Shown piece after piece: positions 3,862-63,324 of a stretch of DNA of 64,000 nt (position 1 is the first letter of the stretch; each line of letters begins with the position of its first letter). This stretch comes from Dokdonia sinensis (GTDB lineage: Bacteria; Bacteroidota; Bacteroidia; Flavobacteriales; Flavobacteriaceae), in NCBI RefSeq assembly GCF_003688895.1, contig NZ_REFV01000001.1, forward strand, positions 62,001 to 126,000, given 5' to 3'. The notes under the pieces were generated by a model. The model saw only the letters and a program-made list of their open reading frames with translations. It did not search any database and had not been told where the DNA came from. The position numbers were made by a program, and so were the translations under genes.

Positions 3862-3883
3862 TTACGCTTTCGCGAAAGCGTAA
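3862..3883. repeat. TTTCGCGAAA-core palindrome, intergenic copy
   Basis: Perfect 22-base palindrome with the complete ACGCTTTCGCGAAAGCGT arms, lying in the ~300-base spacer between the two T9SS paralogs. The rest of this spacer (3884-4072) is AT-rich leader with no gene that I can see. Confidence 0.9.
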
Positions 3884-4072
3884 CCCTTATAATTTACCTA
3901 AAATTAACATTTTTAAACTAACAGATGTTTGTTTTATCGACGAAATACATATAAATAGGTTTAAATACACAATTTTAACACTGAAAATTATTTTAGCTTA
4001 CACAATTTTGTAATTTAGTGGTCCCAAATCATACGAAATAGCCCCAAACTATTTCTATTAACCTGCTTGATT

Positions 4073-9813: not shown

Positions 9814-9825
9814 TAAAAAAATGTC

Positions 9826-9853
9826 TTGTTTCGCTTTCGCGAAAGCGAAACAA
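9826..9853. repeat. TTTCGCGAAA-core palindrome, intergenic copy with alternative arms
   Basis: Perfect palindrome in which the outer arms read TTTCGCTTTCGCGAAAGCGAAA-like rather than the ACGC...GCGT form, so only the inner GCTTTCGCGAAAGC is constant. It sits 5 bases past the DPP III stop, upstream of that gene's terminator, and would form a hairpin in its mRNA. Confidence 0.85.
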
Positions 9854-9858
9854 TAAAA

Positions 9859-11886
9859 TTATTTTAAATGTCCATACGTCTTTGAGTATTCCAGCATTTG
9901 TCCTTCAAAAGTTTCTGGTTGCTCAATAGTAAATCCAGTAATCTCATCTCCTTCTATGATAGGAACAATCATCGGATTTACAAAACCGCTATATGGAGCA
10001 CTCTTAAATTGCTTGTTACGTTCTAAAACCTCTGCGTGTATTTGCTGGTCTACTTTTACTCCGTAATCTTCTACGAGCGCCTTTGCAGCTTCATAATCAC
10101 CTTCAGAAGTGATACGCTGTGTCTCGCGTAGCAATTCTCCAAAGATTGTACGCAACTTCTTGTAATCTGTGATGTTATAATAAGTCTTCCCGTCACGAGT
10201 CACTTTCTCAATCACATTATCTGCTTGACCACGCTCAAAGGCCCAAGCACTCACCCATTGGCGATTGCGCATGTGCGCCTCTTCTACCTCATCACCTAAG
10301 TTTAACCTCACTAACTGTGTGATGAGACCATTACGGATGTAGCCATCGTATGCAGCTTTCCCGGTTTTCTCCCAATCCTGCACAAGACCGATTTCTTGTA
10401 ATTTTGGATCCATTAAATAATATAAACCAAACAAATCTGCTCGCCCTTCTTCTATAGTAGATTTATAACTCTTTAAAGTTTCCTTAGGAGTTCCTACACC
10501 TTCATTTATTTGACCCGAGGCGTGACCTACCACTTCGTGCAAAGCAGTGTGTAGCTTATCACCCAGTTTTCCATATTCCTCCTCTAAAGCAATTTCTTCT
10601 TCATCGTGTGCAAATTCTTTGAGTCTACCTGAGCCTCCAGCATTGTTATAAGCGTTAATAATATTCCCTAAAGACACAGACTTACTTCCCTGGGCTTGTC
10701 GTATCCAATTATTGTTCGGTAAGTTTACCCCGATAGGTGTGCTAGGTGATGCATCTCCAGCTTCTCCTGCTACTATAACGGTTTTATAAGAAACACCTTT
10801 TACAGTATCCTTTTTATGCTCGGGCATTAGCGGAGAATTATCTTCAAACCATTGTGCATCTTTAGAGAGCGCCGCCATTTTCTTAGACATATCAAAATCC
10901 TTGATCTGAACGATTGTTTCATACGACCCTTTATAGCCTTTGGGATCATTATATACCTCAATAAACCCATTTATCCAGTCTATATTTCCCTCTGTAGAGT
11001 TTACCCAAGCAATAGCATAATCATCCCAGGTATCTAGACTTCCTGTCTTGTAATATTCTATAAGAAGACCTAGTGCCTTTCCTTGTTGCTCACTTTCGGC
11101 TACAGATTGCGCTTTTTCTAGCCAAAATATAATACGGTCTATAGCTGCTCCATAAAGACCACCGCTTTTGTAAACCTGCTCAACTAACTTACCGTTCTCT
11201 TTTACAAGACGCGTATTGAGACCAACTTCTATAGGTTCCTTATTATCTACTTTTATGGCCCCGTAAAATTGCTCAACATCTGCTGTGGTAACGTCAGGAC
11301 CATAAAAATTAATAGCACTCTCCTTTACAATATCTGCATCTTTTGAGAGGTTTACTTTCTTACTGTCTTTGTCATTAAATAAAACATCAAATGCTTCTCC
11401 TTCTAACGAAGCCCCACTATCTGCCAGTAACTGTTTAAGGTAATCTGCGTTAAACTCAGGTTTCATCTTATCATTACTATAGTGATGATGAATCCCATTT
11501 GCAAACCAAACCCTTTTTAGGTAGGTTTCAAATTGGCCCCACGACTCATTGTTCTTATCTCCCTTATAATTTGTATAAACGGTTTCTAGCGCTTTTCTTA
11601 TCTCTAGATTATGTCTGTAGTTCTGCGCCCACATAATATCTCTTCCAGCGAGACCAGCTTGGGTAAGATAGTATACAAGTTTCTGCTCCTTGAGAGTAAG
11701 ATTCTCAAATCCTGGGATATCATAACGTAAAATCTTCAGGTCTGCTACCTGTTCTACCTCTGTAGATAGAGGTTTTGGGGATTCCGCTTTCGCGAAAGCG
11801 TCCTTTTCATCATTTCCCGTTTTTTCTCCACATCCAGTTATCATAACTGCAGCCAGAGCTGCTCCGTATATCAATTTAAATTTCAT
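9859..11886 (-). CDS. Dipeptidyl peptidase III family zinc peptidase (M49), lipoprotein
   Basis: 675 residues. The zinc motif HEVVGH is at residues 450-455 and the second ligand motif EEGRAD at 479-484 (family form EECRAD, here Cys replaced by Gly), both diagnostic for peptidase family M49, which removes dipeptides from peptide N-termini. The start MKFKLIYGAALAAVMITGCG is a lipoprotein signal with a lipobox ending in Cys, so the enzyme should be tethered in the periplasm or outer membrane. Residues ~30-36 just after the lipobox read DAFAKAE, encoded by a copy of the TTTCGCGAAA palindrome. Transcribed divergently from the SRPBCC gene; followed by a palindrome and a terminator. Confidence 0.93.
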   Translation of the reverse strand: MKFKLIYGAALAAVMITGCGEKTGNDEKDAFAKAESPKPLSTEVEQVADLKILRYDIPGFENLTLKEQKLVYYLTQAGLAGRDIMWAQNYRHNLEIRKALETVYTNYKGDKNNESWGQFETYLKRVWFANGIHHHYSNDKMKPEFNADYLKQLLADSGASLEGEAFDVLFNDKDSKKVNLSKDADIVKESAINFYGPDVTTADVEQFYGAIKVDNKEPIEVGLNTRLVKENGKLVEQVYKSGGLYGAAIDRIIFWLEKAQSVAESEQQGKALGLLIEYYKTGSLDTWDDYAIAWVNSTEGNIDWINGFIEVYNDPKGYKGSYETIVQIKDFDMSKKMAALSKDAQWFEDNSPLMPEHKKDTVKGVSYKTVIVAGEAGDASPSTPIGVNLPNNNWIRQAQGSKSVSLGNIINAYNNAGGSGRLKEFAHDEEEIALEEEYGKLGDKLHTALHEVVGHASGQINEGVGTPKETLKSYKSTIEEGRADLFGLYYLMDPKLQEIGLVQDWEKTGKAAYDGYIRNGLITQLVRLNLGDEVEEAHMRNRQWVSAWAFERGQADNVIEKVTRDGKTYYNITDYKKLRTIFGELLRETQRITSEGDYEAAKALVEDYGVKVDQQIHAEVLERNKQFKSAPYSGFVNPMIVPIIEGDEITGFTIEQPETFEGQMLEYSKTYGHLK
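11785..11800. repeat. Palindrome copy inside the DPP III gene (AFAKA frame)
   Basis: Perfect CGCTTTCGCGAAAGCG, coding AFAKA in the disordered linker directly after the lipobox. Confidence 0.9.
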
Positions 11887-14055: not shown

Positions 14056-16356
14056 TTATTCGAGTTCAAAAGACTTCATAAGCTTTGCATCAGAGCTTCC
14101 GCCCACCCAAACATTAAAATCGCCAGATTCGACAATCCATTCTCCTTGATTATTGTAAAATCCTAGCTCTTCCCCTGTTAGTTCAAAAGTAATTTCTTTT
14201 GAAGCTCCCGGTACTAGCATCACGGCCTCATATCCTTTCAATTCCCGTGTGGGACGCGTTACACTAGCAAAGGGATCTTGCAGGTACAATTGTACGATTT
14301 CTTTTCCTTCCACAGTTCCAGTATTAGTCACAGTCACTTTAACTGTAGCTCCAGATGCTTTTGGGGTAACGGCCATATTTGAATATTTGAAAGTCGTATA
14401 ACTCAGTCCGTGACCAAAAGGATACAATGGTGTGTTTTCTGAATCTCCATAGTGTGACCAAAACACGAGATTATCTCCAGCATTATTTGGACGACCCGTA
14501 CTCTTTGGATTATAGTAAATAGGCACCTGTCCCACATTTCTAGGAAAAGACATCGGTAATTTACCTGATGGATTGTAATCTCCGTACAGCACGTGAGCAA
14601 TGGCATTTCCCGCTTGGCTTCCTAGATGCCACCCTTCCACAATAGTGGGGATATTTTCGGCTGCCCAGTCGATTACTAATGGTCGTCCGTTATTTAAGAC
14701 TAGGACAATGTTTTTATTTACGGCATACACCGCTTCTAGTAATTCTTGCTGTACGCCAGGCATATTGAGCGTTGTACGGCTTCTGCCCTCTCCAGACATA
14801 AAGCCGTGCTCTCCGAGGACCATCACCACGACGTCTGCATCTCTTGCTGTGGAGACCGCTTTCGCGAAAGCGGAGGTATCCGTCTCATTAATATTTAATT
14901 CTCTATAAAATGTAGCATCGCCAGTCACCACGTCTGCTCCTTTGGCGTAGGTTAAGGTGTTCCCCTCATATTTTTCCATTCCCTCCTTCACCGAAACTGC
15001 CGTCCCATCATCTGAAGCAATTCTCCAGCTCCCCAGCGGACTACTCTTATCGTCTGCCAGCGCACCGATGAGCGCAATCTTTTGTCCTTGTTTTTTAAGC
15101 GGAAGGAGATTTCCTTTATTCTTCAATAAGACGATAGACTTGCGTGCCATATCTAGCACATCTTCTTGATATTTTTCGTTGTAAACAACCTCTTTCTCTC
15201 GAGCTTCATCGCAATAGCGATACGGGTCTTCAAAAAGTCCTAGTTCAAATTTTACCGTAAGAATACGTCTTGCGGCGTCTGTTATCATCGCTTCATCTAC
15301 TTTTCCCGCTTTTACAAGTCCAGCAAGTTCAGTCACATATAAGTCCGATTCCATATCCATATCTGACCCAGCAGTTACAGCGAGGCGAGCGGCTTCTTTT
15401 CCATCCTTAGCAAAACCGTGATCTACCATTTCCTTAATGGACCCCCAATCTGAAATTACAAATCCTTCAAAATCCCACTTGCCTTTTAAAATCTCTCGTT
15501 GCAAAAACTTGTCTCCGGTTGCAGGAATTCCGTTAAGTGTATTGAAAGAATTCATAAACGTTTTTACGCCAGCATCTGCCGCTGCTTTAAACGGTGGAAA
15601 AACCACGTTATATAAGGTAGAAGTTCCTATATCTGACGTATTGTAATCTCTACCGCCTTCGGCAAATCCGTAGGCTGCCCAGTGTTTTGCGCAGGCAGCG
15701 ATGGTTAGTGGGTCACTTAAATCATCTCCTTGAAAACCGCGAACTCGTGCAGCTGCAATATCGCTACCTAAAAACGGATCCTCTCCTGCTCCTTCCATAA
15801 CGCGTCCCCAACGGGCATCCCGCGAAATATCAACCATAGGAGCAAATGTCCAGTTTATTCCAGAGGCGGCGGCCTCTGCAGCCGCAACTTCAGCGCTACG
15901 TTGTATTGCTTCCATATCCCAACTGGCAGCTTCGGCGAGTGGGATGGGTGCCATTGTCTTATATCCGTGTATGACGTCAAAACCTATGATAAGTGGGATT
16001 CCCAGCCGGCTTTCTTCTACGGCTATTTTTTGTACCGCACGTACATTTTTTACACCACGCACGTTGAGCATTGAACCTACATACCCCTTGCGCAGGTATT
16101 CATATTTACGTTCTGCATCTCCACCTTTAGGCGCTGGACCTGTAAAATCTGTAAATCCGTTGTACTGATTCATCTGCCCTATCTTCTCTTCAAGCGTCAT
16201 AATGGCTAGAAGGCTGTCCACTTTTCGAGCAATCGCTTCTTTTTTAGGGTCAGTTTGATTGATTTTTGACGCATTTTGAACTGTTTGGAAGCTTTCAAAT
16301 GTTAAAAAAAGGACACTTGCGAAAAAAATTACGGGGAGAATGGCTTTGATTTTCAT
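14056..16356 (-). CDS. bglX: Periplasmic beta-glucosidase, glycoside hydrolase family 3 (BglX type)
   Basis: 766 residues, the normal size for BglX. The N-terminal hydrophobic segment is a signal peptide/anchor; the GH3 TIM barrel follows (start TLEEKIGQM, catalytic nucleophile Asp303 in VISDWGS), then the C-terminal GH3 sandwich domain (VVMVLGEHGFMSGEGRSR) and a fibronectin-III-like domain at the end (ELKGYEAVML). It hydrolyses terminal beta-glucosides, probably oligosaccharides entering the periplasm. A palindrome copy adds SAFAKAVS between residues ~495 and 500 at the edge of the sandwich domain. First gene of a two-gene unit with the DUF1684 gene. Confidence 0.95.
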   Translation of the reverse strand: MKIKAILPVIFFASVLFLTFESFQTVQNASKINQTDPKKEAIARKVDSLLAIMTLEEKIGQMNQYNGFTDFTGPAPKGGDAERKYEYLRKGYVGSMLNVRGVKNVRAVQKIAVEESRLGIPLIIGFDVIHGYKTMAPIPLAEAASWDMEAIQRSAEVAAAEAAASGINWTFAPMVDISRDARWGRVMEGAGEDPFLGSDIAAARVRGFQGDDLSDPLTIAACAKHWAAYGFAEGGRDYNTSDIGTSTLYNVVFPPFKAAADAGVKTFMNSFNTLNGIPATGDKFLQREILKGKWDFEGFVISDWGSIKEMVDHGFAKDGKEAARLAVTAGSDMDMESDLYVTELAGLVKAGKVDEAMITDAARRILTVKFELGLFEDPYRYCDEAREKEVVYNEKYQEDVLDMARKSIVLLKNKGNLLPLKKQGQKIALIGALADDKSSPLGSWRIASDDGTAVSVKEGMEKYEGNTLTYAKGADVVTGDATFYRELNINETDTSAFAKAVSTARDADVVVMVLGEHGFMSGEGRSRTTLNMPGVQQELLEAVYAVNKNIVLVLNNGRPLVIDWAAENIPTIVEGWHLGSQAGNAIAHVLYGDYNPSGKLPMSFPRNVGQVPIYYNPKSTGRPNNAGDNLVFWSHYGDSENTPLYPFGHGLSYTTFKYSNMAVTPKASGATVKVTVTNTGTVEGKEIVQLYLQDPFASVTRPTRELKGYEAVMLVPGASKEITFELTGEELGFYNNQGEWIVESGDFNVWVGGSSDAKLMKSFELE
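14857..14872. repeat. Palindrome copy inside bglX (AFAKA frame)
   Basis: Perfect CGCTTTCGCGAAAGCG, coding AFAKA in a surface-like segment before DADVVVMVLGE. Confidence 0.9.
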
Positions 16357-17993: not shown

Positions 17994-18763
17994 GATTCCT
18001 AAATATACTTCTGGCACTTCTTGTCTTTGCGGTAAGTTGTGAAAATTCGAACCATAAAAAAGATGATACGAAAGTTGATAACGCTACTTCGGCTTCGCTC
18101 AGTACAGGTTTCGCGAAAGCAAAACCAGTCCTAGATTCCACCCGATACAATGTGGCATTTTTAATTATGGACGGCACCTATAATACAGAGCTCACGGCGC
18201 CTTTTGATATTTTTCAACACACCATCTTTAGAGAGAATATCAAGGCAATGAATGTCTTTATGGTGGCAAACACGCTCGAGCCCATTCGGACTTTTGAAGG
18301 AATGTACATCTTGCCAGATTTTGATTATACAAAGGACGACTTGCCGAAAATTGATATCCTGGTAATCCCCAGCGCCGAACATCATCTAGATACTGACCTA
18401 GAGGACGAAGCTATGATTTCATTTGTACAAGAAGTAGATAAGGAAGCGCTGTTTATGACCTCTCATTGTGACGGTGCTTTTGTGCTGGCTAAGGCTGGTC
18501 TTCTGGATGGTAAAGTCTCGACAACCTTCCCAAGCGATATTGATAAGATGCGGGAGGCCTTTCCAAATTTGGACATTAGAAAGGATGTACTTTTTGTGCA
18601 CGATGGAAAATACATCACCTCAGCAGGAGGCGCCAAAAGCTTCGAAGCTTCTCTCTACCTTGCCGAACATCTTTACGGAGCAGAAATCGCAAGGTCACTT
18701 GCAGGAGGATTAGTTATCGACTGGAGGCTAGAGGATGTTCCGCACTTGATAGTTAAGGAATAA
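17990..18763 (+). CDS. DJ-1/PfpI family lipoprotein
   Basis: 257 residues. Lipoprotein signal with lipobox AVSC near residue 17, a ~40-residue linker, then a DJ-1/PfpI (class I glutamine-amidotransferase-like) domain: the nucleophile-elbow Cys160 sits in TSHCDGAFVLAKAGLLDG, the usual position in this family. Cys-containing members include proteases, hydratases and the ligand-binding half of AraC-type regulators; which one applies is open, but a periplasmic location is clear. The linker (residues ~30-45) is built from two repeats, a CTTCGGCTTCGCTCAGTACA-type element and a TTTCGCGAAA copy. Coupled to the MFS gene by a 4-base overlap; ends 11 bases inside the convergent LysE gene. Confidence 0.88.
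   Translation: MRFLNILLALLVFAVSCENSNHKKDDTKVDNATSASLSTGFAKAKPVLDSTRYNVAFLIMDGTYNTELTAPFDIFQHTIFRENIKAMNVFMVANTLEPIRTFEGMYILPDFDYTKDDLPKIDILVIPSAEHHLDTDLEDEAMISFVQEVDKEALFMTSHCDGAFVLAKAGLLDGKVSTTFPSDIDKMREAFPNLDIRKDVLFVHDGKYITSAGGAKSFEASLYLAEHLYGAEIARSLAGGLVIDWRLEDVPHLIVKE
18109..18120. repeat. Palindrome copy inside the DJ-1-like gene (FAKA frame)
   Basis: TTTCGCGAAAGC with one mismatched arm base, coding GFAKAK in the lipoprotein linker. It is preceded at 18084-18106 by another dispersed-repeat-like stretch. Confidence 0.85.
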
Positions 18764-19426: not shown

Positions 19427-20344
19427 ATGAAATTAAAATACACACTCACAGCCCTTTGTTTGGTTTTTGCTTTCGCAAAAGCGCACTCACAACTAGACGA
19501 TGCTCAATTTGAAGTAGTCTTCGAAAGCACGTGGAGCCAGTCTACACACCCACATTCTAGCGGAAGTCTTCCTGGTAGCGCACATTGGTCCAAACTTGTA
19601 GGAACCCTTCACAATAGCGATGCAGACTTTATAGAAGCCGGAGAAACGGCAACCCCGGGCATAGAAAACGTCGCCGAAACTGGAAACAATAATGCCTTTT
19701 TCTCAGAAATTAATACAGAAATTTCAAACGGAAACGCCCAAGAAATTCTTGATTTTGGGGCATTGGGAAGTGCATCAGGAACGATTACGGGGAGTTTTAC
19801 GGTTTCTGAAGAACATCCGCTACTCACATTAGTAAGTATGATCGCACCGAGTCCTGATTGGTTAATTATGGTTGATAGTTTCTCATTGCTTAACGATGAA
19901 GGTACTGCTTGGAAAGAAACGATAAGTTTTGATGTTTTTCCTTATGATGCAGGAACGGACAGCGGGACAGACTACACAAGCGCAAATGCAGACACCAACC
20001 CTGCCCAACCGATTGCTAGTTTACAAGGGACAACGCCGTTTTCTTCTGAAAAGATAGGAACGATGACGATTACTCTTGATTCGCAATTAAGCCTTTCGGA
20101 AAACGAGCAAGAGGATTTTAGCCTGTATACAACTAGCAGTTCACGACAATTTATAATTACAAATGAAAGTGTTGCAAACGCGAACTTCAACCTTTTTGAT
20201 ATTACAGGAAAAGAAGTTCAGAGTGCCTCGCTTACCACGGGTACAAACACAATTTCCTACGGAAGTATTTCTGGGGGTGTTTATATTGCCAGGATTACTG
20301 GGTCAAATGGTGGAATGTTTGTTCAGAAGGTGGTGATAAGATAA
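19427..20344 (+). CDS. Spondin-domain protein with T9SS sorting domain
   Basis: 305 residues counted from the ATG at 19427; the frame is open further upstream but only this start gives a signal peptide (MKLKYTLTALCLVFAFAKA then HSQ). Residues ~25-215 resemble the spondin_N domain (AQFEVVFESTWS, HPHSSGSLPGSAHWS, GIENVAETGN, SPDWLIMVD), known from F-spondin-type extracellular adhesion proteins. The last ~70 residues are a T9SS type A sorting domain (NLFDITGKEV ... SGGVYIARI). The h/c region of the signal peptide is encoded by a degenerate palindrome copy. A heptamer array follows the stop within 5 bases. Confidence 0.9.
   Translation: MKLKYTLTALCLVFAFAKAHSQLDDAQFEVVFESTWSQSTHPHSSGSLPGSAHWSKLVGTLHNSDADFIEAGETATPGIENVAETGNNNAFFSEINTEISNGNAQEILDFGALGSASGTITGSFTVSEEHPLLTLVSMIAPSPDWLIMVDSFSLLNDEGTAWKETISFDVFPYDAGTDSGTDYTSANADTNPAQPIASLQGTTPFSSEKIGTMTITLDSQLSLSENEQEDFSLYTTSSSRQFIITNESVANANFNLFDITGKEVQSASLTTGTNTISYGSISGGVYIARITGSNGGMFVQKVVIR
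19469..19482. repeat. Degenerate palindrome copy in a signal peptide (AFAKA frame)
   Basis: GCTTTCGCAAAAGC, one base off the core, coding AFAKA at the end of the signal peptide of the spondin-domain protein. Confidence 0.8.
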
Positions 20345-22610: not shown

Positions 22611-22625
22611 TTGTGATATTGTGAG

Positions 22626-22645
22626 TACGCTTTCGCGAAAGCGTA
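22626..22645. repeat. TTTCGCGAAA-core palindrome, intergenic copy before yidC
   Basis: Perfect 20-base form TACGCTTTCGCGAAAGCGTA, 16 bases upstream of the yidC start, so it would lie in or next to the ribosome-binding region. Confidence 0.9.
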
Positions 22646-22672
22646 ATTAAAGTCTATTCTAAATTTTGCGAA

Positions 22673-26927: not shown

Positions 26928-27509
26928 GTGATTGTAGAAAAACCAGAACTTTATTTTCCCAGAGATGTCGAGTGGCGCGAGTGGCTGGACGCAAACTACA
27001 ACCGTTATCCAGACGGAATCTATCTCATCTTTTACAAACTTGAAAATAAGCAACCATCGATGCGATGGGAAGATGCTGTACGCGTGGCGATATGCTACGG
27101 CTGGATAGACAGCACGGTAAAAAGTCTGGGGAACGGGAAGCGAAGGCAGTTTTTTTGTCCACGAAATCCAAAGAGCACTTGGAGCAAACTCAATAAAAAG
27201 TACGTGGCAGAGCTAGATAAACAGGGTTTGATACACGAGAGTGGTCAGAAAATGATAGACCTCGCCAAAAAAACAGGAACCTGGACCGCGATGGATGATG
27301 TAGAAAATGGTGTAATGCCCGAGGATTTAAAATCCGCTTTCGCGAAAAACAAAACAGCACTTAAAAACTACAACGCCTTTGCCCCCAGCTATCGGAAGAA
27401 CTATCTTTCGTGGCTACACAGTGCCAAAAGACAGGAAACCAGAAACAAACGTATCGCTGAAATTTTGAGGCTTTGTGAGGAGAATGTGAAGTCTAGGGAA
27501 ACGAGATGA
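26928..27509 (+). CDS. YdeI/OmpD-associated family protein
   Basis: 193 residues, cytoplasmic. Begins with GTG (preceded in frame by no better start). The family pattern is seen in the Trp-rich N-terminal half: WREWLDANY, SMRWEDAVRVAICYGWIDS and RNPKSTWSKLN, and in the C-terminal helix with SYRKNYLSWLHSAKRQETRNKRI. The family is widespread but its molecular role is unsettled (linked in enterobacteria to stress/peptide resistance). A palindrome copy codes SAFAKNK at residues ~136-142. A heptamer/octamer array begins at the stop codon. Confidence 0.88.
   Translation: MIVEKPELYFPRDVEWREWLDANYNRYPDGIYLIFYKLENKQPSMRWEDAVRVAICYGWIDSTVKSLGNGKRRQFFCPRNPKSTWSKLNKKYVAELDKQGLIHESGQKMIDLAKKTGTWTAMDDVENGVMPEDLKSAFAKNKTALKNYNAFAPSYRKNYLSWLHSAKRQETRNKRIAEILRLCEENVKSRETR
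27336..27347. repeat. Palindrome copy inside the YdeI-like gene (AFAK frame)
   Basis: GCTTTCGCGAAA with a diverged right arm, coding AFAK. Confidence 0.8.
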
Positions 27510-38845: not shown

Positions 38846-38930
38846 GGATTTCAAACTATAGTAGCCAATATTATTTTTATACTTATTCAACAAATCATAA
38901 CTGGCTAATTCACTGATTTTTATAATTTTA

Positions 38931-38948
38931 ACGCTTTCGCGAAAGCGT
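38931..38948. repeat. TTTCGCGAAA-core palindrome, intergenic copy
   Basis: Perfect 18-base form between mdh and the downstream minus-strand gene, ~50 bases past the mdh terminator. Confidence 0.9.
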
Positions 38949-38997
38949 ACTCAGAACCCACTACAAAAAAAGCAATTCGAGAAACCTTTATAAAACG

Positions 38998-42148: not shown

Positions 42149-42280
42149 GTCAATGCCCTTCCAGAATGCCGATGTAATCCCTCGTAAACCCTTGAAGTTA
42201 TTAACAAACTGTGGAAAAAGTATAGGGCTATGTGCCTACGTTTTTAATGCTAAAATAAATAGTGTTTTGGATGTTGTTTT

Positions 42281-42302
42281 TTACGCTTTCGCGAAAGCGT
42301 AA
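42281..42302. repeat. TTTCGCGAAA-core palindrome, intergenic copy upstream of gyrB
   Basis: Perfect 22-base palindrome in the 311-base spacer 42101-42411, which otherwise contains the gyrB promoter and the asnB terminator and no gene. Confidence 0.9.
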
Positions 42303-42354
42303 CTCCCATAATTAAACCTCGTACTATTAAGTCAAAAACCACACCAAAACAAGA

Positions 42355-44205: not shown

Positions 44206-44227
44206 TTACGCTTTCGTGAAAGCGTAA
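44206..44227. repeat. TTTCGCGAAA-core palindrome with one central mismatch
   Basis: TTACGCTTTCGtGAAAGCGTAA (one base off) in the spacer between the divergent asnB and DUF2911 genes, ~125 bases from either start. Confidence 0.8.
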
Positions 44228-45554: not shown

Positions 45555-46810
45555 GTTTTCTGCTTTTTCTTTCTAGCCGCAGGAAACAAAACATTGTTTA
45601 GGATTAGCCTATATCCTGGCGAATTAGGATGCAACTCCAACTCCGTTTTTGGGTCTCCTACCCTATGTTGATAATCTTCTGGGTCGTGACCTCCGTAAAA
45701 GGTAAAGAAACCTTTTCCTTTAATCCCGTGAATGTAGCGTGCTTCACCATTTGTTTTATTCTCACCCATTATAAGCACATTTGATTTGATACTCTCAGCA
45801 TCATAGGATGTTGTTTGTCCCATAAAACCTTTTACTAGGGCTGTGTGGTTTTGACACAGCATCGTTGGGATAGGATCCCATTTTGCACTGTAATCCTTTA
45901 GTGTAAAATAATCCGTCTCAAAAGGAATGCGGCGCTTGCGCGTCATATCAATGGACGAAAACTCATACACCATAGGTGAGCGCTCCAGAACAAAATCCTT
46001 AAAAGCAAATGTTTTTCCAAAATCAATACGCGACTGATAATCTGGATCTGAAGCATCACCATCAAACATAGGCTCACAAATGTCTACACCTTCGGCTGCA
46101 AGGGCAATATCAAAACTGTCTGTGGCACTACACATTGCAAACATAAAACCACCTCCCACGACATAGTCTCTTATTTTTAAGGATACATCTCGTTTTTCTT
46201 CGGACACTTTACTGTATCCTAATTTACTAGCGAGCGCCTCGGCATTTTTCTTTTCTTCAATATACCACGGCGCCGCTCGATAGTTTGCATAAAATTTACC
46301 ATACTGTCCTGTAAAATCCTCGTGATGCAGGTGTAGCCAATCGTATAAAATCAACTGGTCGTCTAGTACTGCTTCATCATAAATGGTGGTGTATGGAATC
46401 TCTGCGTATGTAAGAACCATAGTTACGGCATCATCCCAGGGCACTTTACTGTCTGGTGTGTAAACCGCAATCTTGGGAGCCTTTTCTAAAATAACTGCCT
46501 CCATATTTTGGGAAGGACTACTTATTTCGGTAAGGATTTGCTCGGTGGCATTGTCAGACAAGACTTCATAGGAAACACCGCGTATGGTGCATTCTCTACG
46601 TATGTCTTCTGTATCTGGAAGTAAAAAAGAGCCCCCTCTATAATTAAGAAGCCACTTTACTTTAAGGTTTTGGTCGAGTGACCAGTAGGTGATTCCATAA
46701 GCCTTGAGGTGTTCCTTTTGACTCTCGACATCCATAGGAATGAGGATGTAGGACGCTTTCGCGAAAGCGCACGCCAAAACAAACATCGTAAATAATAGTA
46801 TTTTCTTCAT
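45551..46810 (-). CDS. Exported protein of unknown function, often labelled asparagine synthetase B
   Basis: 419 residues from ATG 46810, giving a signal peptide (MKKILLFTMFVLACAFAKAS) whose end is coded by a palindrome copy. It shows none of the AsnB motifs (no Cys2, no PP-loop SGGLDS), so the label this family usually carries is misleading. Visible instead: an N-terminal YILIPMDVESQKEHLKAYGITYW block, a glutamine-amidotransferase-like alpha/beta pattern (KIAVYTPDSKVPWDDAV, YVVGGGFMFAMCSATD with a Cys after the strand) and a C-terminal FTFYGGHDPEDYQHRVGDP. Likely periplasmic; coupled to the DUF922 gene. Function unknown. Confidence 0.75.
   Translation of the reverse strand: MKKILLFTMFVLACAFAKASYILIPMDVESQKEHLKAYGITYWSLDQNLKVKWLLNYRGGSFLLPDTEDIRRECTIRGVSYEVLSDNATEQILTEISSPSQNMEAVILEKAPKIAVYTPDSKVPWDDAVTMVLTYAEIPYTTIYDEAVLDDQLILYDWLHLHHEDFTGQYGKFYANYRAAPWYIEEKKNAEALASKLGYSKVSEEKRDVSLKIRDYVVGGGFMFAMCSATDSFDIALAAEGVDICEPMFDGDASDPDYQSRIDFGKTFAFKDFVLERSPMVYEFSSIDMTRKRRIPFETDYFTLKDYSAKWDPIPTMLCQNHTALVKGFMGQTTSYDAESIKSNVLIMGENKTNGEARYIHGIKGKGFFTFYGGHDPEDYQHRVGDPKTELELHPNSPGYRLILNNVLFPAARKKKQKT
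46754..46769. repeat. Palindrome copy in a signal peptide (AFAKA frame)
   Basis: Perfect CGCTTTCGCGAAAGCG coding AFAKA at the cleavage region of the signal peptide. Confidence 0.9.
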
Positions 46811-48526: not shown

Positions 48527-48559
48527 TGAGGAGCTAAAGTATATAATTGTTGGTTTTTA

Positions 48560-48581
48560 TTACGCTTTCGCGAAAGCGTAA
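48560..48581. repeat. TTTCGCGAAA-core palindrome, intergenic copy upstream of dnaB
   Basis: Perfect 22-base palindrome between dnaB and the accA terminator. Confidence 0.9.
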
Positions 48582-48644
48582 TACTTAACAACCCACTGTT
48601 AATAAACAGCGGATAAGTCTTGAATATTGTTAATAGTCGTAAAA

Positions 48645-49711: not shown

Positions 49712-50650
49712 TTAGGATTGAAGCGCATTTTTTTGCTTTGCTTTGCGCCTATTCTTTAAAATTCCATTAGCAATCACAACACTTAGAATCACCAAAGCTC
49801 CATAATAAAATTCTGGGCTCATTTTTTCACTATCGCCCAAAATGACAAATGCCAGCACGATGCCATATACAGGCTCAAGGTTTATGGTAAGCATAATTGT
49901 GTAAGGACTAAGGTGACGCATTACTTTTACAGATGCAATAAATGCATACGCTGTACAAACTGATGCGAGTAAACCTAAAAACATCCAGTCTTTACTTGAT
50001 AAATCAAAAAATGTCGCTGACAAGAATGTGGTGTCCGCTTTTGCGAAAGCACTACCTGTAATACTCGCTACAAGGAGATACCCAGTTATAAATAGGGTTC
50101 CTATAAGCAATTCATAAAAGGATATTTTGGTTGGATTATGTTTGTGAACAAATTTCCCGTTTATCAATGTAAATACTGCTGACAGAAATGCTGAAAACAA
50201 TGCAAGTCCAATTCCTAAGCGATACTCTGGTTCTACTTCGAAAATCATATACAACGCCCCGATGACAATCAGTCCAAAAAGTAACTCATACCAAATTATC
50301 TTCCGGTTGTAAAATATAGGCTCTAGCAAAGCTGTAAAAAATGCACCTGTACTCATCATTGCTAATGTTATGGATACATTAGAAACTTTTATTGCTCCGA
50401 AAAATGTGAGCCAGTGCACAGCAATGACAATTCCTGCTATGGAAAAACCGTAGAACGCCTTTCGCGAAAGCGTAATCTCAATTCCCTTCCATTTTATATA
50501 TATGAGTATAAAAATACTTGCGAGCCCCATTCTAAACCATACCAAAGGAACTGCATCTATGCTTATAAGTGCACCGAGAACAGCAGTAAAACCCCAAATA
50601 AAAACAATGAGATGAAAATGAAGGTAGCTCTGTAGCTTAGCGTCTCGCAC
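49712..50650 (-). CDS. EamA/DMT family transporter
   Basis: 312 residues, ten predicted membrane helices in two EamA repeats (FIWGFTAVLGALISIDAVPLVWFR at the first repeat, LEPVYGIVLAFVILGD in the second). Exporter-like, substrate unknown. It carries two palindrome copies, one read as ITLSRKAF (residues ~58-65, between helices) and one as GSAFAKAD (~200, in a loop). Its start lies 14 bases inside the upstream LptF/G gene, so the two are coupled. Confidence 0.9.
   Translation of the reverse strand: MRDAKLQSYLHFHLIVFIWGFTAVLGALISIDAVPLVWFRMGLASIFILIYIKWKGIEITLSRKAFYGFSIAGIVIAVHWLTFFGAIKVSNVSITLAMMSTGAFFTALLEPIFYNRKIIWYELLFGLIVIGALYMIFEVEPEYRLGIGLALFSAFLSAVFTLINGKFVHKHNPTKISFYELLIGTLFITGYLLVASITGSAFAKADTTFLSATFFDLSSKDWMFLGLLASVCTAYAFIASVKVMRHLSPYTIMLTINLEPVYGIVLAFVILGDSEKMSPEFYYGALVILSVVIANGILKNRRKAKQKNALQS
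50037..50050. repeat. Palindrome copy inside the EamA gene (AFAKA frame)
   Basis: GCTTTTGCGAAAGC, one base off the core, coding AFAKA in a loop after a membrane helix. Confidence 0.75.
50459..50472. repeat. Palindrome copy inside the EamA gene (LSRK frame)
   Basis: Perfect 12-base core plus one intact arm, coding LSRK in a cytoplasmic loop. Confidence 0.85.
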
Positions 50651-52901: not shown

Positions 52902-54137
52902 TTAAAATAATGTAATTAGATACCAAACGCTAAAGCCTATGAGCAATACGATACTCAATAAGCTAAGTATCTTCATTGCATTCGAGAGCTTTGCTTCTTC
53001 AGGGATATCAGCTTTTGCGAAAGCTAGATAATTACAGATCGCGTAAAATGGCGCTGTAATAAAAGACACAATAGTAGCAACCGCAACTAGAAATCCCATA
53101 TCACTCATAAAGAAAAATAAAATCACACAAGTGCCTACGACTAAAGAGACGAGCCAAAACAAATACGTAAATTTACCAGATCCTATTTTTAATATTTGAC
53201 TTGCTCTAGTAAGTGCCATAGGAGACCCATCCAGCGTTGTTAGGGTTGTGCTAAACATCGTTGTAAACGCTGCAATACCAATAAATATGGTAGCCCAACC
53301 TCCTAAACTTGTGGTGTACATGTTTATTAACTGACCAGCAAACTCTCCGCCCTTAGAAGAAAATGCCTCGCCACTACCGTACATTACAAGTGCTCCAAGC
53401 GTGAGAAAACCTATACCCAATACAATGGTACTCGCATAACCTAAATTAAAATCGAACAGCGAAGTTCTCAAACTTCCCTTTTCTGTCTTTCCTTTTTCTA
53501 GTGTCCAGAGCGAGTGCCAGATAGATATATCGAGTGGTGCCGGCATCCATCCCATAAAAGCTATTAAAAAAGCCAATCCAGCAGCATCTGTAGGAATTAT
53601 TTGCATCAAACTTTTAGGATTACCCATACCTTGTGTTTGTATGCTTTCGCGAAAAGCAAAGAATACCGCCACAATCGTACTAATGGTTAACGTAACTATT
53701 ATAATTTTCATAAGATTATCTAAAACCTTATAACGTCCTATTGCCAAAATCATCGCGCACAGAAATGTAATCGCCACGCTCCAAATAGCGATATCTAGTC
53801 CAATGCCAAAGAGCTGTACGGCCAGACCTGCTGTCACAACAGTAACTGCCGTTTGGATGGTAAACATTGTGAGAATCGTGAGAATTAAATAGGTAATCAG
53901 GACACCTTTACCTAGACTGGCATAGCCGTCAAGTAAGCTATTTCCAGTCGCAGCAGCATACCGTGGACCAAGTTGAAAGAATGGATATTTAATAAGATTA
54001 ATGAGCAACAATGCCCAGATAAGTCCAAATCCAAAATCGGCACCAGCCCTTGTGCTTTGTACAAGGTGGGAAACTCCAATCGCCGCTCCGGCGAAAAGCA
54101 GCCCAGGACCTAACTTTTTTAAAGTGATTCCCGTCAT
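52902..54137 (-). CDS. Nramp-related divalent-metal transporter lacking the DPGN motif
   Basis: 411 residues, about 11 membrane helices, Nramp fold by overall pattern (KKLGPGLLFAGAAIGVSHLVQSTRAG at helix 1, FLIAFMGWMPAPLDISIW at helix 6, GSPMALTRA near helix 8). Canonical Nramp metal ligands DPGN (helix 1) and MPH (helix 6) are not present; the positions read GAAIG and MPAP. So either a distant Nramp branch with other substrates or a non-metal transporter. Two palindrome copies: AFRES (~162) and AFAKAD (~372). Start overlaps the sigma-factor stop by 4 bases. Confidence 0.82.
   Translation of the reverse strand: MTGITLKKLGPGLLFAGAAIGVSHLVQSTRAGADFGFGLIWALLLINLIKYPFFQLGPRYAAATGNSLLDGYASLGKGVLITYLILTILTMFTIQTAVTVVTAGLAVQLFGIGLDIAIWSVAITFLCAMILAIGRYKVLDNLMKIIIVTLTISTIVAVFFAFRESIQTQGMGNPKSLMQIIPTDAAGLAFLIAFMGWMPAPLDISIWHSLWTLEKGKTEKGSLRTSLFDFNLGYASTIVLGIGFLTLGALVMYGSGEAFSSKGGEFAGQLINMYTTSLGGWATIFIGIAAFTTMFSTTLTTLDGSPMALTRASQILKIGSGKFTYLFWLVSLVVGTCVILFFFMSDMGFLVAVATIVSFITAPFYAICNYLAFAKADIPEEAKLSNAMKILSLLSIVLLIGFSVWYLITLF
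53011..53024. repeat. Palindrome copy inside the Nramp-related gene (AFAKA frame)
   Basis: GCTTTTGCGAAAGC, one base off, coding AFAKA in the last cytoplasmic loop. Confidence 0.75.
53643..53657. repeat. Palindrome copy inside the Nramp-related gene (FRES frame)
   Basis: GCTTTCGCGAAAAGC, coding AFRES, the only third-frame copy seen. Confidence 0.75.
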
Positions 54138-54703: not shown

Positions 54704-55827
54704 CGATTAGGTTTTGAGATCAAGTTTGCACTAAAGATACTCAATTGAAAAAAAATGAGAAATAATTCGTTTAAAGGAAAAAACCAAGCGCAATCCTTCT
54801 CTTGTAACCTATATGCACTTACTCCTACTGCTATCCAAGCAATTAAGTATCTCAAGCCTATGATCGCTAAACAAATCTCCCATTGAAAACTTGTGAACAA
54901 TATGAGAAAAGCAGATAGGAAGAATAATAGCTGACTGCTATAAAAAATTGCTAGAAGAAATTTATCTGTCCATTTGTAGTATTTGGCAACATTTACGTGT
55001 CTACGTTTCTGAGTAAACCAGGCTCTGTAGCTCTTCTTAGCCTTGGATATCGTAAAACTCTCGTAATTCCAAATAGCAGTTGTATTTTGGGATGTAGCTG
55101 CCTGATTAACAAATAGATCGTCGTCGCCGCTTCTTATTTTAATATGATTAATAAAACCGCGTTGCTCGTAAAAAAGGTTTGTTGTGTAAGCAAGATTTCT
55201 ACCCACTCCCATATAAGGTTTTCCTCCAATTGCGTAGGAAAAGTATTGTACGGCTGTAAAAAGAGTCTCATATCGTATTAACTGATTAAGCAAAGAGCCT
55301 TTTACTTTTTCATAACCTCCGTAGCCTAAAACAATCTCTTTTTCTTGTGAAAAACCTCTGGCCATCTCGCGTATCCAATTTGATGTAGCTGGAACACAAT
55401 CTGCATCTGTAAAGAGAAGGTGCTCGTAGGCTGCGGCTTTAACACCTAAAGTGAGTGCGTATTTTTTATTTCCCCAGAAAGCCTCAACATTTACAACATT
55501 TACCTGCTTCACTCTCTTATCGCTTAGGGCAAATTGTTCCATCACTTCTTCTGTGTCGTCACTAGAAGCGTCGTTTATAAAAACGATCTGGAACTCGGGA
55601 TAATCCTGCTCTAAAAGTTTGGGAATATGCTTTTTTAGATTTTCAGCTTCATTTTTTGCGCAGACGATTACTGAAATAGGTGGTAATGCCGGGTTTAAAT
55701 TTTTTGAAAGTGCTTTTGTGGTATTCGCTTTCGCGAAAGCGAACCTGTAAAAAAAGAAATAGTAACACACGTTTACAGCGGTTACTATGATAAATAAATA
55801 AAATAGGTAGGGGTACAGATGTTCCAA
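54694..55827 (-). CDS. Membrane glycosyltransferase family 2
   Basis: 377 residues. One N-terminal helix, GT2 catalytic domain (ISVIVCAKNEAENLKKHIPKLL, FINDASSDDTEEVM, LLFTDADCVPATSNW with the DxD metal motif, then GYGGYEKV and the acceptor-side KRRHVNVAKYYK) and three or so C-terminal helices. Sugar donor and product unknown; processive polysaccharide or glycolipid synthesis fits the topology. Residues ~28-36 right after the first helix read RFAFAKANT from a palindrome copy. Overlaps the following sigma factor gene. Confidence 0.92.
   Translation of the reverse strand: MEHLYPYLFYLFIIVTAVNVCYYFFFYRFAFAKANTTKALSKNLNPALPPISVIVCAKNEAENLKKHIPKLLEQDYPEFQIVFINDASSDDTEEVMEQFALSDKRVKQVNVVNVEAFWGNKKYALTLGVKAAAYEHLLFTDADCVPATSNWIREMARGFSQEKEIVLGYGGYEKVKGSLLNQLIRYETLFTAVQYFSYAIGGKPYMGVGRNLAYTTNLFYEQRGFINHIKIRSGDDDLFVNQAATSQNTTAIWNYESFTISKAKKSYRAWFTQKRRHVNVAKYYKWTDKFLLAIFYSSQLLFFLSAFLILFTSFQWEICLAIIGLRYLIAWIAVGVSAYRLQEKDCAWFFPLNELFLIFFQLSIFSANLISKPNRWK
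55726..55741. repeat. Palindrome copy inside the glycosyltransferase gene (AFAKA frame)
   Basis: Perfect CGCTTTCGCGAAAGCG with TT/AA extensions, at the cytoplasmic end of the first membrane helix. Confidence 0.9.
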
Positions 55828-57509: not shown

Positions 57510-57664
57510 CTCAAACATAAAATCTATAAATTAGTATTGATTATGAACGACATAGAGTTTGTAACAACTCTTTAGAATAATGCTATTTAAAGCTAAAAGA
57601 GGATAGATTCTAAAATATCAATGTTTTATAAATGCAAATTGAATAGCGTTTACTTTTGTATAAA

Positions 57665-57684
57665 TACGCTTTCGCGAAAGCGTA
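57665..57684. repeat. TTTCGCGAAA-core palindrome, intergenic copy after murB
   Basis: Perfect 20-base palindrome 18 bases past the murB stop; with A/T flanks it might also serve as the murB terminator hairpin. Confidence 0.9.
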
Positions 57685-57702
57685 CTCATCACCATCGCTA
57701 CA

Positions 57703-59912: not shown

Positions 59913-59965
59913 TCTTTTATTTTTTTAGCGTTGCAAAAATGCAAAAAATAAGAGAGTTTATAGAT

Positions 59966-59986
59966 AAGCTTTCGCGAAAATAGCTT
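59966..59986. repeat. Diverged TTTCGCGAAA palindrome with AAGCT/AGCTT outer arms
   Basis: AAGCTTTCGCGAAAATAGCTT: intact 10-base core, broken inner right arm, still self-complementary at its ends. Confidence 0.7.
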
Positions 59987-60048
59987 CTCCTTAACGAACA
60001 TTTAGCAATGAAAATACAATTTGACAAGTTTCAAAAAATGACATAAAA

Positions 60049-60659: not shown

Positions 60660-60690
60660 TTAACTTATTAGTCAACAATCAGACCAAACT

Positions 60691-63324
60691 ATGAGCATTG
60701 CTTCAAAATATGACGCTTCTATTGTAGAAGACAAGTGGTATAACTACTGGATGGAGAATAACTTCTTCCACTCTACACCAGACGAGAGAGAGCCTTACAC
60801 TATCGTAATACCTCCTCCTAACGTCACAGGAGTGCTACATATGGGACATATGCTCAACAACACCATACAAGATGTTTTAATACGTCGAGCACGATTATTA
60901 GGTAAAAATGCGTGCTGGGTGCCTGGTACAGACCACGCCTCTATCGCCACCGAGGCCAAAGTAGTTGCACGACTCAAAGAAAGAGGCATTAACAAGTCTG
61001 ACCTAACGAGAGAAGAATTTCTAGCCCACGCTTGGGAGTGGAAAGAAGAATATGGCGGAGTAATCCTTGATCAACTTAAAAAATTAGGTGCTTCCTGCGA
61101 TTGGGAGCGCACGGCATTTACGATGGACCCACATATGAGTGAGTCCGTTATAAAAACTTTTGTAGACCTGTACAATAAAGGACTCATTTACCGCGGGTAT
61201 CGCATGGTAAACTGGGATCCAGAGGCAAAGACGACCCTTTCTGACGAAGAGGTAATACACGAAGAGCGTCAGGGATTACTTTACTACCTAAATTATAAGA
61301 TCGAAGGTTCTGACGAGACGCTTACTATTGCAACTACACGTCCAGAAACTATTTTTGGAGATACAGCCATCTGCATTAACCCTACGGACGAACGTTTTAC
61401 CCATCTCAAAGGAAAAAAAGCGATTGTACCTATTTGCGGTCGTGTGATTCCAATTATAGAAGATGAGTATGTAGATCTGGAATTCGGTACAGGATGTCTT
61501 AAAGTAACTCCTGCTCACGATGAGAATGATAAAATGCTGGGTGATAAGCACGGGTTAGAAGTGGTTGATATTTTTAATGATGATGCTACGCTCAACAGTT
61601 TTGGGATGCATTATAATGGAGTAGACCGTTTTGACTGTCGTCGTGCGATTAAAAAAGAACTGGAAGATTTAGGCGTTCTCGTAAAAACCGAAAATCATGT
61701 AAATAAAGTTGGAACCTCAGAACGCACCAAAGCGGTTATCGAGCCTAGGCTCTCTGACCAATGGTTCCTAAAAATGAGCGAGCTTGTAAAACCAGCCATT
61801 AAGGCGGTTCTTGAAACAGGAGATGTAAAGCTTTTCCCAAAGAAATTTGAAAACACCTATCGTCACTGGATGGAAAACTGTCGCGACTGGAACATCTCGC
61901 GACAACTTTGGTGGGGACAGCAGATTCCGGCCTACTTTTATAGTGATGGCAAGGAGGACTTTGTGGTGGCAGAGACGATGGAGGAGGCGGTTACGCTTTC
62001 GCGAAAGCGTACAAACAACCCCAACCTTACTGCCGAAGATTTACGTCAAGACGAAGATGCACTAGATACTTGGTTTAGCTCTTGGCTGTGGCCTATGAGT
62101 GTTTTTGACGGCGTGCGCAATCCTGAAAATGAAGAATTTAAGTACTACTACCCTACTAACGATCTTGTAACTGGTCCCGATATTTTATTTTTCTGGGTGG
62201 CGCGTATGATTGTTGCGGGATATGAATATACGGGTGAGCGTCCGTTCGAAAATGTGTATTTGACAGGTCTTGTGCGTGATAAACAACGTCGCAAGATGTC
62301 AAAATCACTGGGGAATTCTCCAGATGCGCTTGGATTAATTAAGGATTACGGGGCAGACGGAATACGCGTGGGATTACTTTTAAGTAGCGCTGCGGGTAAT
62401 GATCTGATGTTTGACGAAGAGCTGTGTAATCAAGGAAAGGGGTTTGTAAACAAAATCTGGAACGCTTTCCGCCTTATTAAAGGGTGGGAAATAGATGATA
62501 CTATTGCTCAACCCGCACATAGTGTGCAAGGGTTAGAGTGGTACACAAACCGTTTTAACCAGACCTTACTGGAAATAGAAGACCATTTCTCTAAATACCG
62601 AATTTCTGACGCGCTTATGGCAAGTTATAAATTGGTATGGAACGACTTCTGTGGTTGGTTACTGGAAATAGTAAAACCAGAATACCAGAAACCGATCGAT
62701 CGAAAAACGTATGATGCGGTTATTGAGGCTCTAGAAAATAACTTGCGCATCCTACATCCATTTATTCCATTTGCCTCTGAGGAAATCTGGCAAACTATTA
62801 CCACCCGTACTCCTGAGCAGGCACTTATCGTAAACAGGTGGCCGGAAGGAGGAGCTGTAAACGACACTATCATTGCAGATTTTGACTATGCATCACAGGT
62901 GATTTCTGGAATTCGAAATATCAGAAAGAGCAAGAACATCGCCTTTAAAGATGCGATTGCTGTTCACGTGCTCAAGAATGAAGATTTCTCTGGAGATTAT
63001 GATACGATAATTGCAAAATTGGGTAATGTGAGTGATATCGCTTTCGCGAAAGCGCCAGTTGACGGAGCCTTATCCTTTAGAGTAAAGTCTAATGAATATT
63101 TCATACCGCTAGCGGGAGCCATAGACGTAGAAGCCGAAGTTGCCAAAATTGAGGAAGAACTCAAATACAATAAAGGTTTCTTGATGTCTGTAAGCAAGAA
63201 GCTCTCAAACGAGCGTTTTGTGAGCAACGCACCAGAAAAAGTTGTAGCGCTAGAAAAGCAAAAAATGGCAGATGCCGAGGCTAAAATTGAGGCGTTAGAA
63301 AAGAGATTGGCGAGTTTAAAGTAA
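60691..63324 (+). CDS. valS: Valine--tRNA ligase
   Basis: 877 residues. Class I synthetase: HIGH-type signature PPPNVTGVLHMGHM at ~45, editing domain with TTRPETIFGDTAI and GTGCLKVTPAHDENDK, KMSKS in RRKMSKSLGNSPD near 535, anticodon-binding domain, and the C-terminal coiled coil (~805-877) typical of ValRS. Two palindrome copies lie inside: one coding TLSRKRTNN (~433-440) just before the conserved QDEDALDTWFSSWLWP, the other coding IAFAKAPVD (~781-788) between the anticodon domain and the coiled coil. Both look like small surface insertions relative to the family. Confidence 0.98.
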   Translation: MSIASKYDASIVEDKWYNYWMENNFFHSTPDEREPYTIVIPPPNVTGVLHMGHMLNNTIQDVLIRRARLLGKNACWVPGTDHASIATEAKVVARLKERGINKSDLTREEFLAHAWEWKEEYGGVILDQLKKLGASCDWERTAFTMDPHMSESVIKTFVDLYNKGLIYRGYRMVNWDPEAKTTLSDEEVIHEERQGLLYYLNYKIEGSDETLTIATTRPETIFGDTAICINPTDERFTHLKGKKAIVPICGRVIPIIEDEYVDLEFGTGCLKVTPAHDENDKMLGDKHGLEVVDIFNDDATLNSFGMHYNGVDRFDCRRAIKKELEDLGVLVKTENHVNKVGTSERTKAVIEPRLSDQWFLKMSELVKPAIKAVLETGDVKLFPKKFENTYRHWMENCRDWNISRQLWWGQQIPAYFYSDGKEDFVVAETMEEAVTLSRKRTNNPNLTAEDLRQDEDALDTWFSSWLWPMSVFDGVRNPENEEFKYYYPTNDLVTGPDILFFWVARMIVAGYEYTGERPFENVYLTGLVRDKQRRKMSKSLGNSPDALGLIKDYGADGIRVGLLLSSAAGNDLMFDEELCNQGKGFVNKIWNAFRLIKGWEIDDTIAQPAHSVQGLEWYTNRFNQTLLEIEDHFSKYRISDALMASYKLVWNDFCGWLLEIVKPEYQKPIDRKTYDAVIEALENNLRILHPFIPFASEEIWQTITTRTPEQALIVNRWPEGGAVNDTIIADFDYASQVISGIRNIRKSKNIAFKDAIAVHVLKNEDFSGDYDTIIAKLGNVSDIAFAKAPVDGALSFRVKSNEYFIPLAGAIDVEAEVAKIEEELKYNKGFLMSVSKKLSNERFVSNAPEKVVALEKQKMADAEAKIEALEKRLASLK
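61993..62010. repeat. Palindrome copy inside valS (LSRKR frame)
   Basis: Perfect full-arm ACGCTTTCGCGAAAGCGT, coding LSRKR at a loop ahead of the LDTWFSS block. Confidence 0.92.
63039..63054. repeat. Palindrome copy inside valS (AFAKA frame)
   Basis: Perfect CGCTTTCGCGAAAGCG, coding AFAKA in the linker before the coiled coil. Confidence 0.92.

Follow-up and report, generated by a model that had tools for sequence, protein, structure and literature searches.

The 64,000-nucleotide stretch of Dokdonia sinensis DNA considered here (contig NZ_REFV01000001.1, positions 62,001 to 126,000; hereinafter, the window) raises the question why one and the same palindrome recurs almost from end to end of it, and what in the cell might read it. 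The first-pass annotation of the window had counted 16 perfect copies of the 12-mer CTTTCGCGAAAG and 22 of the 10-mer TTTCGCGAAA; our recount gave the same numbers, to be compared with shuffle means of 0.01 and 0.09, respectively. The first 12-mer is at position 3867 and the last one ends at 63052, in agreement with the annotated range of 3.9 to 63 kb, and the earlier estimate of about 28 copies including near matches is close to the 27 obtained here (22 exact 10-mers and five near matches).

Twenty-four places in the window are within three mismatches of the 16-mer CGCTTTCGCGAAAGCG, five of them lacking the exact 10-mer. Eleven of these 24 are intergenic, though called genes (assigned throughout by a simple script taking the longest open reading frame, ORF) occupy 91% of the window. 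Of the 13 coding matches, 11 are in a single common frame. The exact 10-mers are divided between ORFs of at least 150 aa (11 of 22) and the remaining DNA (11 of 22).

Copy number, distribution and spacing of the mark

The occurrence of the mark is real and genome-wide. The source genome (3.65 Mb in 43 contigs) contains 917 copies of CTTTCGCGAAAG and two of the reversed control, and thus a genomic count near expectation, which the annotation had named as one of two outcomes that would speak against its proposal, is not what is observed. Within the genus, each of the 18 genomes contains 369-905 copies of GCTTTCGCGAAAGC and none of the control. At the family level, 348 genomes were sampled, the source among them, and more than 100 copies are found in only four, namely the source (857 copies), G027 (578), G252 (664) and G202 (408), while 68 genomes have 1-19 copies and 276 have none. 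In the phylum sample (218 genomes including the source) there is a match in 14, and besides the source none exceeds four copies.

The nearest relatives identified by a gyrB scan belong to Dokdonia (92 and 90% identity). Among the 80 named gyrB loci that were kept, the 14-mer is present only in two Dokdonia and two Nonlabens loci, and it was not found in three Leeuwenhoekiella loci (22, 22 and 6.4 kb); for the named genomes (Leeuwenhoekiella and the two named Nonlabens) carrier status refers to gyrB loci of up to 22 kb and not to whole-genome counts. In the gyrB tree of 56 rows (31 of the 80 named loci and all 25 from sampled genomes; G015/L043 and G009/L044, having identical coordinates, are apparently the same genomes) the carriers fall into two clusters, one of Dokdonia plus G202 and one of Nonlabens plus G027 and G252, and two changes are forced by the starred branches. 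G202, the 408-copy carrier from another genus, with G+C content of 0.45 and a long gyrB branch, has weaker arms around the palindrome (see below), and perhaps represents an earlier or relaxed state of the system. In Dokdonia and Nonlabens, with hundreds of near-identical copies, approximately one per 3 to 5 kb, the mark looks like a genome-wide landmark. The 12-mer had no match in the open-licence literature; among the matches listed, there was no report of the motif, and none of the listed papers with three related 10-mers resembled a genome mark.

The even spread of copies, noted by eye in the window, proved to be statistically significant. For the first 100 listed copies on contig 1 of the source genome, the mean gap is 4.1 kb, the coefficient of variation (CV) of gaps is 0.65 compared with 0.99 for random placement, and only two gaps are shorter than 1 kb, with 21 expected. 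In the complete genome G003, 263 10-mers were found in 855 kb sampled round the chromosome. The gap CV is 0.52, compared with 0.95 for placement matched for coding and intergenic DNA (the lowest of 300 random sets being 0.80); two gaps are shorter than 250 bp (23 expected) and 23 are shorter than 1 kb (67 expected), and the variance-to-mean ratio in 10-kb bins is 0.43. The gap CV is below that of matched placement also in the source (0.67 vs 1.01), Nonlabens G252 (0.66 vs 0.98) and G202 (0.60 vs 0.84), the mean gap among carriers being 2.9-4.6 kb. By eye, the density of sites in 40 stretches of G003 shows no trend between replication origin and terminus (ori/ter), and a Noc-, SlmA- or MatP-type ori/ter bias was rejected on these grounds; a parS match is located at 1.346 Mb, near the skew switch.

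The longest site-free stretch of the G003 sample (G003:C1:2977229-2995001) spans 17.8 kb and is open at the sample end, and a site-free stretch of 24 kb is found in Nonlabens G252 (G252:C2:120832-145008). Both apparently contain the same gene cluster, which we take to be a thiamine cluster, with a 619-aa protein 94% identical across the genera. Perhaps, these stretches are recently acquired DNA that is still unmarked.

Architecture and conservation of the element

The annotation had placed the constant part at 12-14 bases, which turned out to be too small, as the palindrome is the centre of an element of about 50 bp, consisting of the core ACGCTTTCGCGAAAGCGT and approximately 16 nt on each side. 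Read 5' to 3' towards the core, each arm avoids C and prefers T at every third base. In 1,079 kb of Dokdonia DNA (G003 and the source) the 14-mer occurs 253 times exactly and 40 times with a single mismatch (reversed control, 0 and 0), and 31 of these 40 mismatches are transitions at half-site positions 1, 2 and 6. Isolated half-sites GCGAAAGCG occur 14 times in 1.08 Mb (3.6 expected), some of them probably being near matches, compared with 330 full 10-mers.

In profiles of 328 sites, the arm 5' of the 10-mer is short of C on either strand up to approximately base 20, with C frequencies of 0.04-0.13 at bases 5 to 20 and 0.12-0.20 with a weak tail beyond, while G and T are more frequent. On average, the left 16-nt arm of the 22 sites in the window contains 1.14 C and the right one 1.14 G, compared with 3.3 and 3.1 predicted from base composition, individual sites ranging from 0 to 5. 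Coding sites (n=184), whatever their strand or frame, and intergenic sites (n=132) alike have the C-poor arms (sites partly within a gene were left out), and hence the constraint acts at the DNA level. Nonlabens arms (n=144) have the same design as those of Dokdonia, and the arms of G202 are weaker than in either genus.

The frequency of T at positions -4, -7, -10 and -13 from the 14-mer is 0.585 vs 0.421 in intergenic arms of Dokdonia (n=201, P 8e-13) and 0.703 vs 0.378 in those of Nonlabens (n=64, P 4e-16); the phase was picked after the profiles had been seen on the same data, and leaving out position -4 gives P values of 3e-8 and 3e-10, respectively. T-G steps are also preferred in this phase. 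There is no complementarity between the two arms, and a longer hairpin was rejected, since dyad symmetry of the arms is no greater than that of permuted arms (one element folded as DNA had z 0.16).

To assess conservation, 60 kb from each of four Dokdonia-like genomes with 86-93% identity were aligned. The core mismatch is 0.28%, compared with 10.2% at 41-80 bp and 8.2% at 81-300 bp from the sites. The arms have a mismatch of 10.1%, but changes involving C constitute 102 of 448, compared with 469 of 1,109 at 41-80 bp. The 10-mer is kept in 140 of the 144 alignable comparisons (40 of 184 could not be aligned), the remaining four differ by one substitution each, and no empty site was seen among the 144. 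The second outcome named by the annotation, copies restricted to a transposon-like family, is not observed either, site positions being stable between species.

In several non-carrier genera there are a few copies, clustered on related islands with genes of heavy-metal efflux and P-type ATPases (named by eye). Here 54 of 144 comparisons are changed, the core mismatch is 9.2% vs 23% in the flanks, and the protection of the core relative to flanks is about 14 times lower than in carriers; pairwise counts in both sets are reciprocal rather than independent, flanks were taken from different windows in the two sets, and the islands may have spent time in carriers. Such weaker protection would be expected if the upkeep of the mark depended on something in the carrier cell, and the conservation together with the decay on islands suggests a trans-acting reader. 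The neutral element similar to cyanobacterial HIP1, considered in the annotation, is contradicted by the strong conservation and by the decay outside the carrier genera. The island loci with decaying copies are L283, L284, L287, L288, L292 and L294; a pair of sites 933 bp apart recurs on islands of G095, G104, G118, G174 and G225. The mark could trace past residence of DNA in carriers, e.g. of the heavy-metal islands now found elsewhere.

As for viruses, neither the 10-mer nor TCGCGA occurs in 70.7 kb of the Nonlabens phages P12024S (whole) and P12024L (35.0 of 35.65 kb), which are related and have no integrase annotated. In IMG/VR, the 16-mer was found in 41 stretches. One 24-kb viral contig with an integrase-like gene (by eye) has four copies in three stretches, and in two viral contigs of higher G+C content the copies have no clearly C-poor arms. 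Several exact 16-mers without clearly C-poor arms were seen in the viral contigs L242, L345 and L224 (G+C 0.42-0.48).

In G003, 156 of the 263 copies are genic, 107 are intergenic, in 8.7% of the sequence, and 23 lie between divergent genes. The coding copies are distributed among the frames as 79, 48 and 29. The preferred frame reads AFAKA, and in the window it often falls in apparent signal peptides, linkers or the end of a membrane helix, as if the host tolerated the mark where the protein sequence is free. The first tenth of genes is somewhat enriched (26 of 156 coding copies). Some coding copies adjoin gaps in alignments of orthologues, but these gaps fit no fixed insert.

Comparison of orthologues shows that 8 of 14 coding sites are co-located in the source and G003 (mean identity 66%), compared with 1 of 15 for G003 and Nonlabens, 0 of 3 for the source and Nonlabens, 2 of 7 for G003 and G202, and 1 of 6 for G202 and Nonlabens, all samples being small. 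Taken together, the differing places of sites and the gyrB tree favour the view that Dokdonia and Nonlabens accumulated their sites separately, under readers with the same specificity, with an old shared origin followed by turnover as the alternative to be kept in mind.

The copies in the window are listed in the table below. The sites with 10-mers at 33087 and 34972 have 14 left-arm bases in common and lie near two similar lipoprotein-like genes in tandem (33368-33952 and 34288-34830), which is probably due to a duplication. Two perfect intergenic tandem repeats with a 7-bp unit are also present in the window, at 20348-20407 (8.6 copies of TGCTGGA) and 44892-44946 (7.9 copies of TAGACGT).

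Table. Copies of the mark in the window. All elements are given without strand (.); mismatches are counted against the 16-mer; the gene containing the last two sites is presumed by us to be valS-like.
Feature	Coordinates	10-mer	Context and remarks
50-bp element	3848..3897	3868	intergenic
50-bp element	9815..9864	9835	between convergent genes
50-bp element	11768..11817	11788	coding, AFAKA in lipoprotein-like linker (by eye)
50-bp element	14840..14889	14860	coding; arms not C/G-poor (3 and 3)
10-mer copy	18089..18138	18109	coding; core edges and arms weaker
near match, 2 mismatches	19468..19483		coding, FAKA in apparent signal peptide
50-bp element	22611..22660	22631	intergenic
10-mer copy	25965..26014	25985	coding; core edges poor
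10-mer copy	27318..27367	27338	coding
near match, 1 mismatch	28709..28724		coding
10-mer copy	30803..30852	30823	intergenic
50-bp element	33067..33116	33087	intergenic
50-bp element	34952..35001	34972	intergenic
50-bp element	38915..38964	38935	intergenic
50-bp element	42267..42316	42287	intergenic, upstream of gyrB
near match, 1 mismatch	44209..44224		between divergent genes
50-bp element	46737..46786	46757	coding, AFAKA in apparent signal peptide
50-bp element	48546..48595	48566	intergenic
near match, 2 mismatches	50036..50051		coding
50-bp element	50440..50489	50460	coding, frame other than AFAKA
near match, 3 mismatches	53010..53025		coding
10-mer copy	53625..53674	53645	coding
50-bp element	55709..55758	55729	coding, AFAKA after apparent membrane helix
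50-bp element	57650..57699	57670	intergenic
10-mer copy	59950..59999	59970	outside ORFs of at least 150 aa
50-bp element	61977..62026	61997	in valS-like gene, frame other than AFAKA
50-bp element	63022..63071	63042	same valS-like gene, AFAKA frame; right arm with 5 G

Possible readers and roles of the mark

We infer that a dimeric protein in Dokdonia, Nonlabens and genus g186 reads the element. Candidate families were searched for in selected carrier and non-carrier genomes. Each of the 13 distinct carriers tested has a single ParB and 1-3 sites fitting a degenerate parS pattern, and a ParB/Noc site was rejected, given the absence of an extra ParB, the dissimilarity of the sequence to parS and the few parS-like sites; the difference from the ParB consensus had been pointed out in the annotation and is borne out. 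The methylase families PF01555, PF00145 and PF02086 are over the cut-off in 2, 6 and 6 of the 13 carriers, respectively, and three carriers (G003, G006 and G252) have none of them, G003 having one weak PF01555 match below the cut-off. A methylase common to carriers was thus rejected for these three families (other methylase families were not tested), and to that extent the methylase site suggested in the annotation loses ground. RecC is absent in all 26 genomes searched (AddAB was not tested). Among the best-conserved Dokdonia/Nonlabens gene pairs (samples, at most 28 top pairs per comparison), inspection by eye revealed one HerA/DUF853-like ATPase with 72% identity and no sequence-specific DNA-binding protein.

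The reading that we tentatively prefer, quite possible though far from assured, is that of a self-DNA mark for homologous DNA exchange, working like DNA uptake sequences. Each copy would serve for recognition as a double-stranded, dyad-symmetric element some 50 bp long, and uptake or recombination of site-bearing fragments would keep rewriting sites into the population. One site per fragment of a few kilobases would suffice, which would account for the even spacing, and the same uptake-like mechanism would also yield tolerance of coding copies, degenerate flanks and restoration of sites. In favour of this role are hundreds of copies in carriers as opposed to none or few in other sampled genomes, the even spacing in three genera, the conservation of the core in carriers compared with its change on islands, coding copies that are often in permissive-looking peptides, along with the absence of an ori/ter trend (by eye), the same arm design at different places in Dokdonia and Nonlabens, and the Nonlabens phages without sites as opposed to site-bearing viral contigs, one with an integrase-like gene. 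Natural competence is reported for Riemerella, a member of the same family (PMC7965970).

Several points weigh against an exchange mark. The uptake sequences described so far are not palindromes (PMC1939737). Among ParB, the three methylase families, RecC and the best-conserved pairs looked at, no reader protein was found, and an intracellular homodimer would suit a long perfect palindrome no less well. To our knowledge, competence has not been described in Dokdonia or Nonlabens; competence genes were not searched for here. Finally, of three species pairs, only G004/G001 has third-codon divergence dropping towards the sites, unlike G003/G006 and G003/G004. A consistent signal of local exchange is therefore lacking, and a recombination gradient at sites was rejected. 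A more elaborate version, an exchange mark of marine Flavobacteriia with the palindromic core serving a dimeric receptor, outward triplet-tuned arms serving RecA-type strand exchange, separate origins in Dokdonia and Nonlabens, and maybe a dialect shared between these non-sister genera, appears unlikely as a whole.

Somewhat unlikely, in our opinion, though a serious rival, is a site of chromosome architecture, where a dimeric nucleoid- or condensin-associated protein bound every 3-5 kb would form regular DNA loops. The palindromic 14-18-bp core, the even spacing, the even density with no ori/ter bias seen, and the strong conservation agree with such a site, as does the proposal, reportedly made by Xu et al. 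in 2018, that HIP1 serves nucleoid structure. However, selection on each of approximately 900 sites would seem strong for a shared structural job, the 13 carriers have only the single ParB and 1-3 parS-like sites each, and, with no 14-mer in the three gyrB loci of the sister group Leeuwenhoekiella, such a job would be dispensable there. A two-way Chi-like site, in which end-processing enzymes would stop at the core, RecA would assemble on the 5' arm and the palindrome would serve both directions, is less likely still, though it also has to be taken seriously. Its appeal lies in a density similar to that of E. coli Chi (42 sites in 200 kb), and in the keto-rich arms with T at every third base and T-G steps, resembling the TGG repeats that give the most stable RecA filaments (PMC3763553), but RecA nucleation shows no preference for TG-rich DNA or Chi, according to the same source. 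Moreover, E. coli Chi is not evenly spaced (gap CV 1.53, uniform null 1.11), isolated half-sites of the mark are few (14, with 3.6 expected, compared with 330 full 10-mers), and RecC is absent in the 26 genomes searched. Known Chi sites are short and are read on one strand.

Maintenance of a HIP1-like motif by a methyltransferase acting on a sequence within it, e.g. CGCG or TCGCGA, would explain a palindrome with nested palindromes, and HIP1 has been linked to orphan methylases (PMC4390886), but this is improbable here, since none of the three methylase families is conserved among the carriers and TCGCGA occurs 11 times in the window outside the 10-mer, some of these occurrences perhaps being within near matches. 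The high copy number, the palindrome and the intergenic enrichment could also come from a mobile or passively copied repeat (REP, MITE or HIP-like neutral spread) or from a bidirectional transcription terminator, and some coding copies do adjoin alignment gaps; we regard this as hardly credible. A mobile repeat was rejected, because all alignable sites are present or one substitution off, with no empty site, and the neighbouring gaps fit no fixed insert. An intrinsic terminator was rejected as well, as many copies lie in genes and between divergent genes, the arms are not complementary, and the 3' arms are A/C-rich rather than T-rich, leaving no terminator T-tract.

DNA marks extending over whole genomes are known in only a few cases, and for HIP1, which is among the best studied, the function is still unsettled. 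The mark described here has properties that narrow the choice, that is, strand-asymmetric arms within a footprint of about 50 bp, almost perfect conservation amid rapidly diverging flanks, characteristic spacing, presence on two separate branches, and decay outside carriers. It offers a tractable system in marine bacteria for studying how genomes gain and keep a landmark every few kilobases, be it for DNA exchange, chromosome folding or recombination.

Comparison with known systems

REP elements, associated with RAYT, are short palindromes occurring in many copies per genome; unlike them, the mark is not restricted to extragenic DNA, shows no sign of mobility and has mirror-symmetric arms. The parS sites of ParB, the NBS of Noc and the sites of SlmA are palindromic dimer sites on the chromosome, from which the mark differs in sequence, in its far larger number of copies, in having no visible ori/ter bias, and in the lack of an extra ParB in its carriers. 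With E. coli Chi, GCTGGTGG, it shares a similar density and a keto-rich strand 5' of the site, but the mark is palindromic and evenly spaced (gap CV of 0.52 vs 1.53 for Chi).

HIP1 of cyanobacteria (GCGATCGC) is likewise a palindrome iterated genome-wide in coding and non-coding DNA, and is reported to be maintained by selection (PMC6604393). The core of the mark comprises 14-18 bp within an element of about 50 bp rather than 8 bp, and no methylase common to carriers was found in the three families; the over-representation in genes and intergenic regions is seen here too, while the HIP1 sequence itself occurs once in the window. Uptake sequences (Haemophilus USS, Neisseria DUS) resemble the mark in having hundreds of copies, even spacing (described for Haemophilus by Karlin; PMC1939737), genic as well as intergenic location, a biased reading frame, a conserved core and degenerate flanks. 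Over-representation and even spacing are thus common to both, but the mark, found in another phylum, is a perfect palindrome with mirror-symmetric arms on both strands, and is not classed in the uptake-sequence family.

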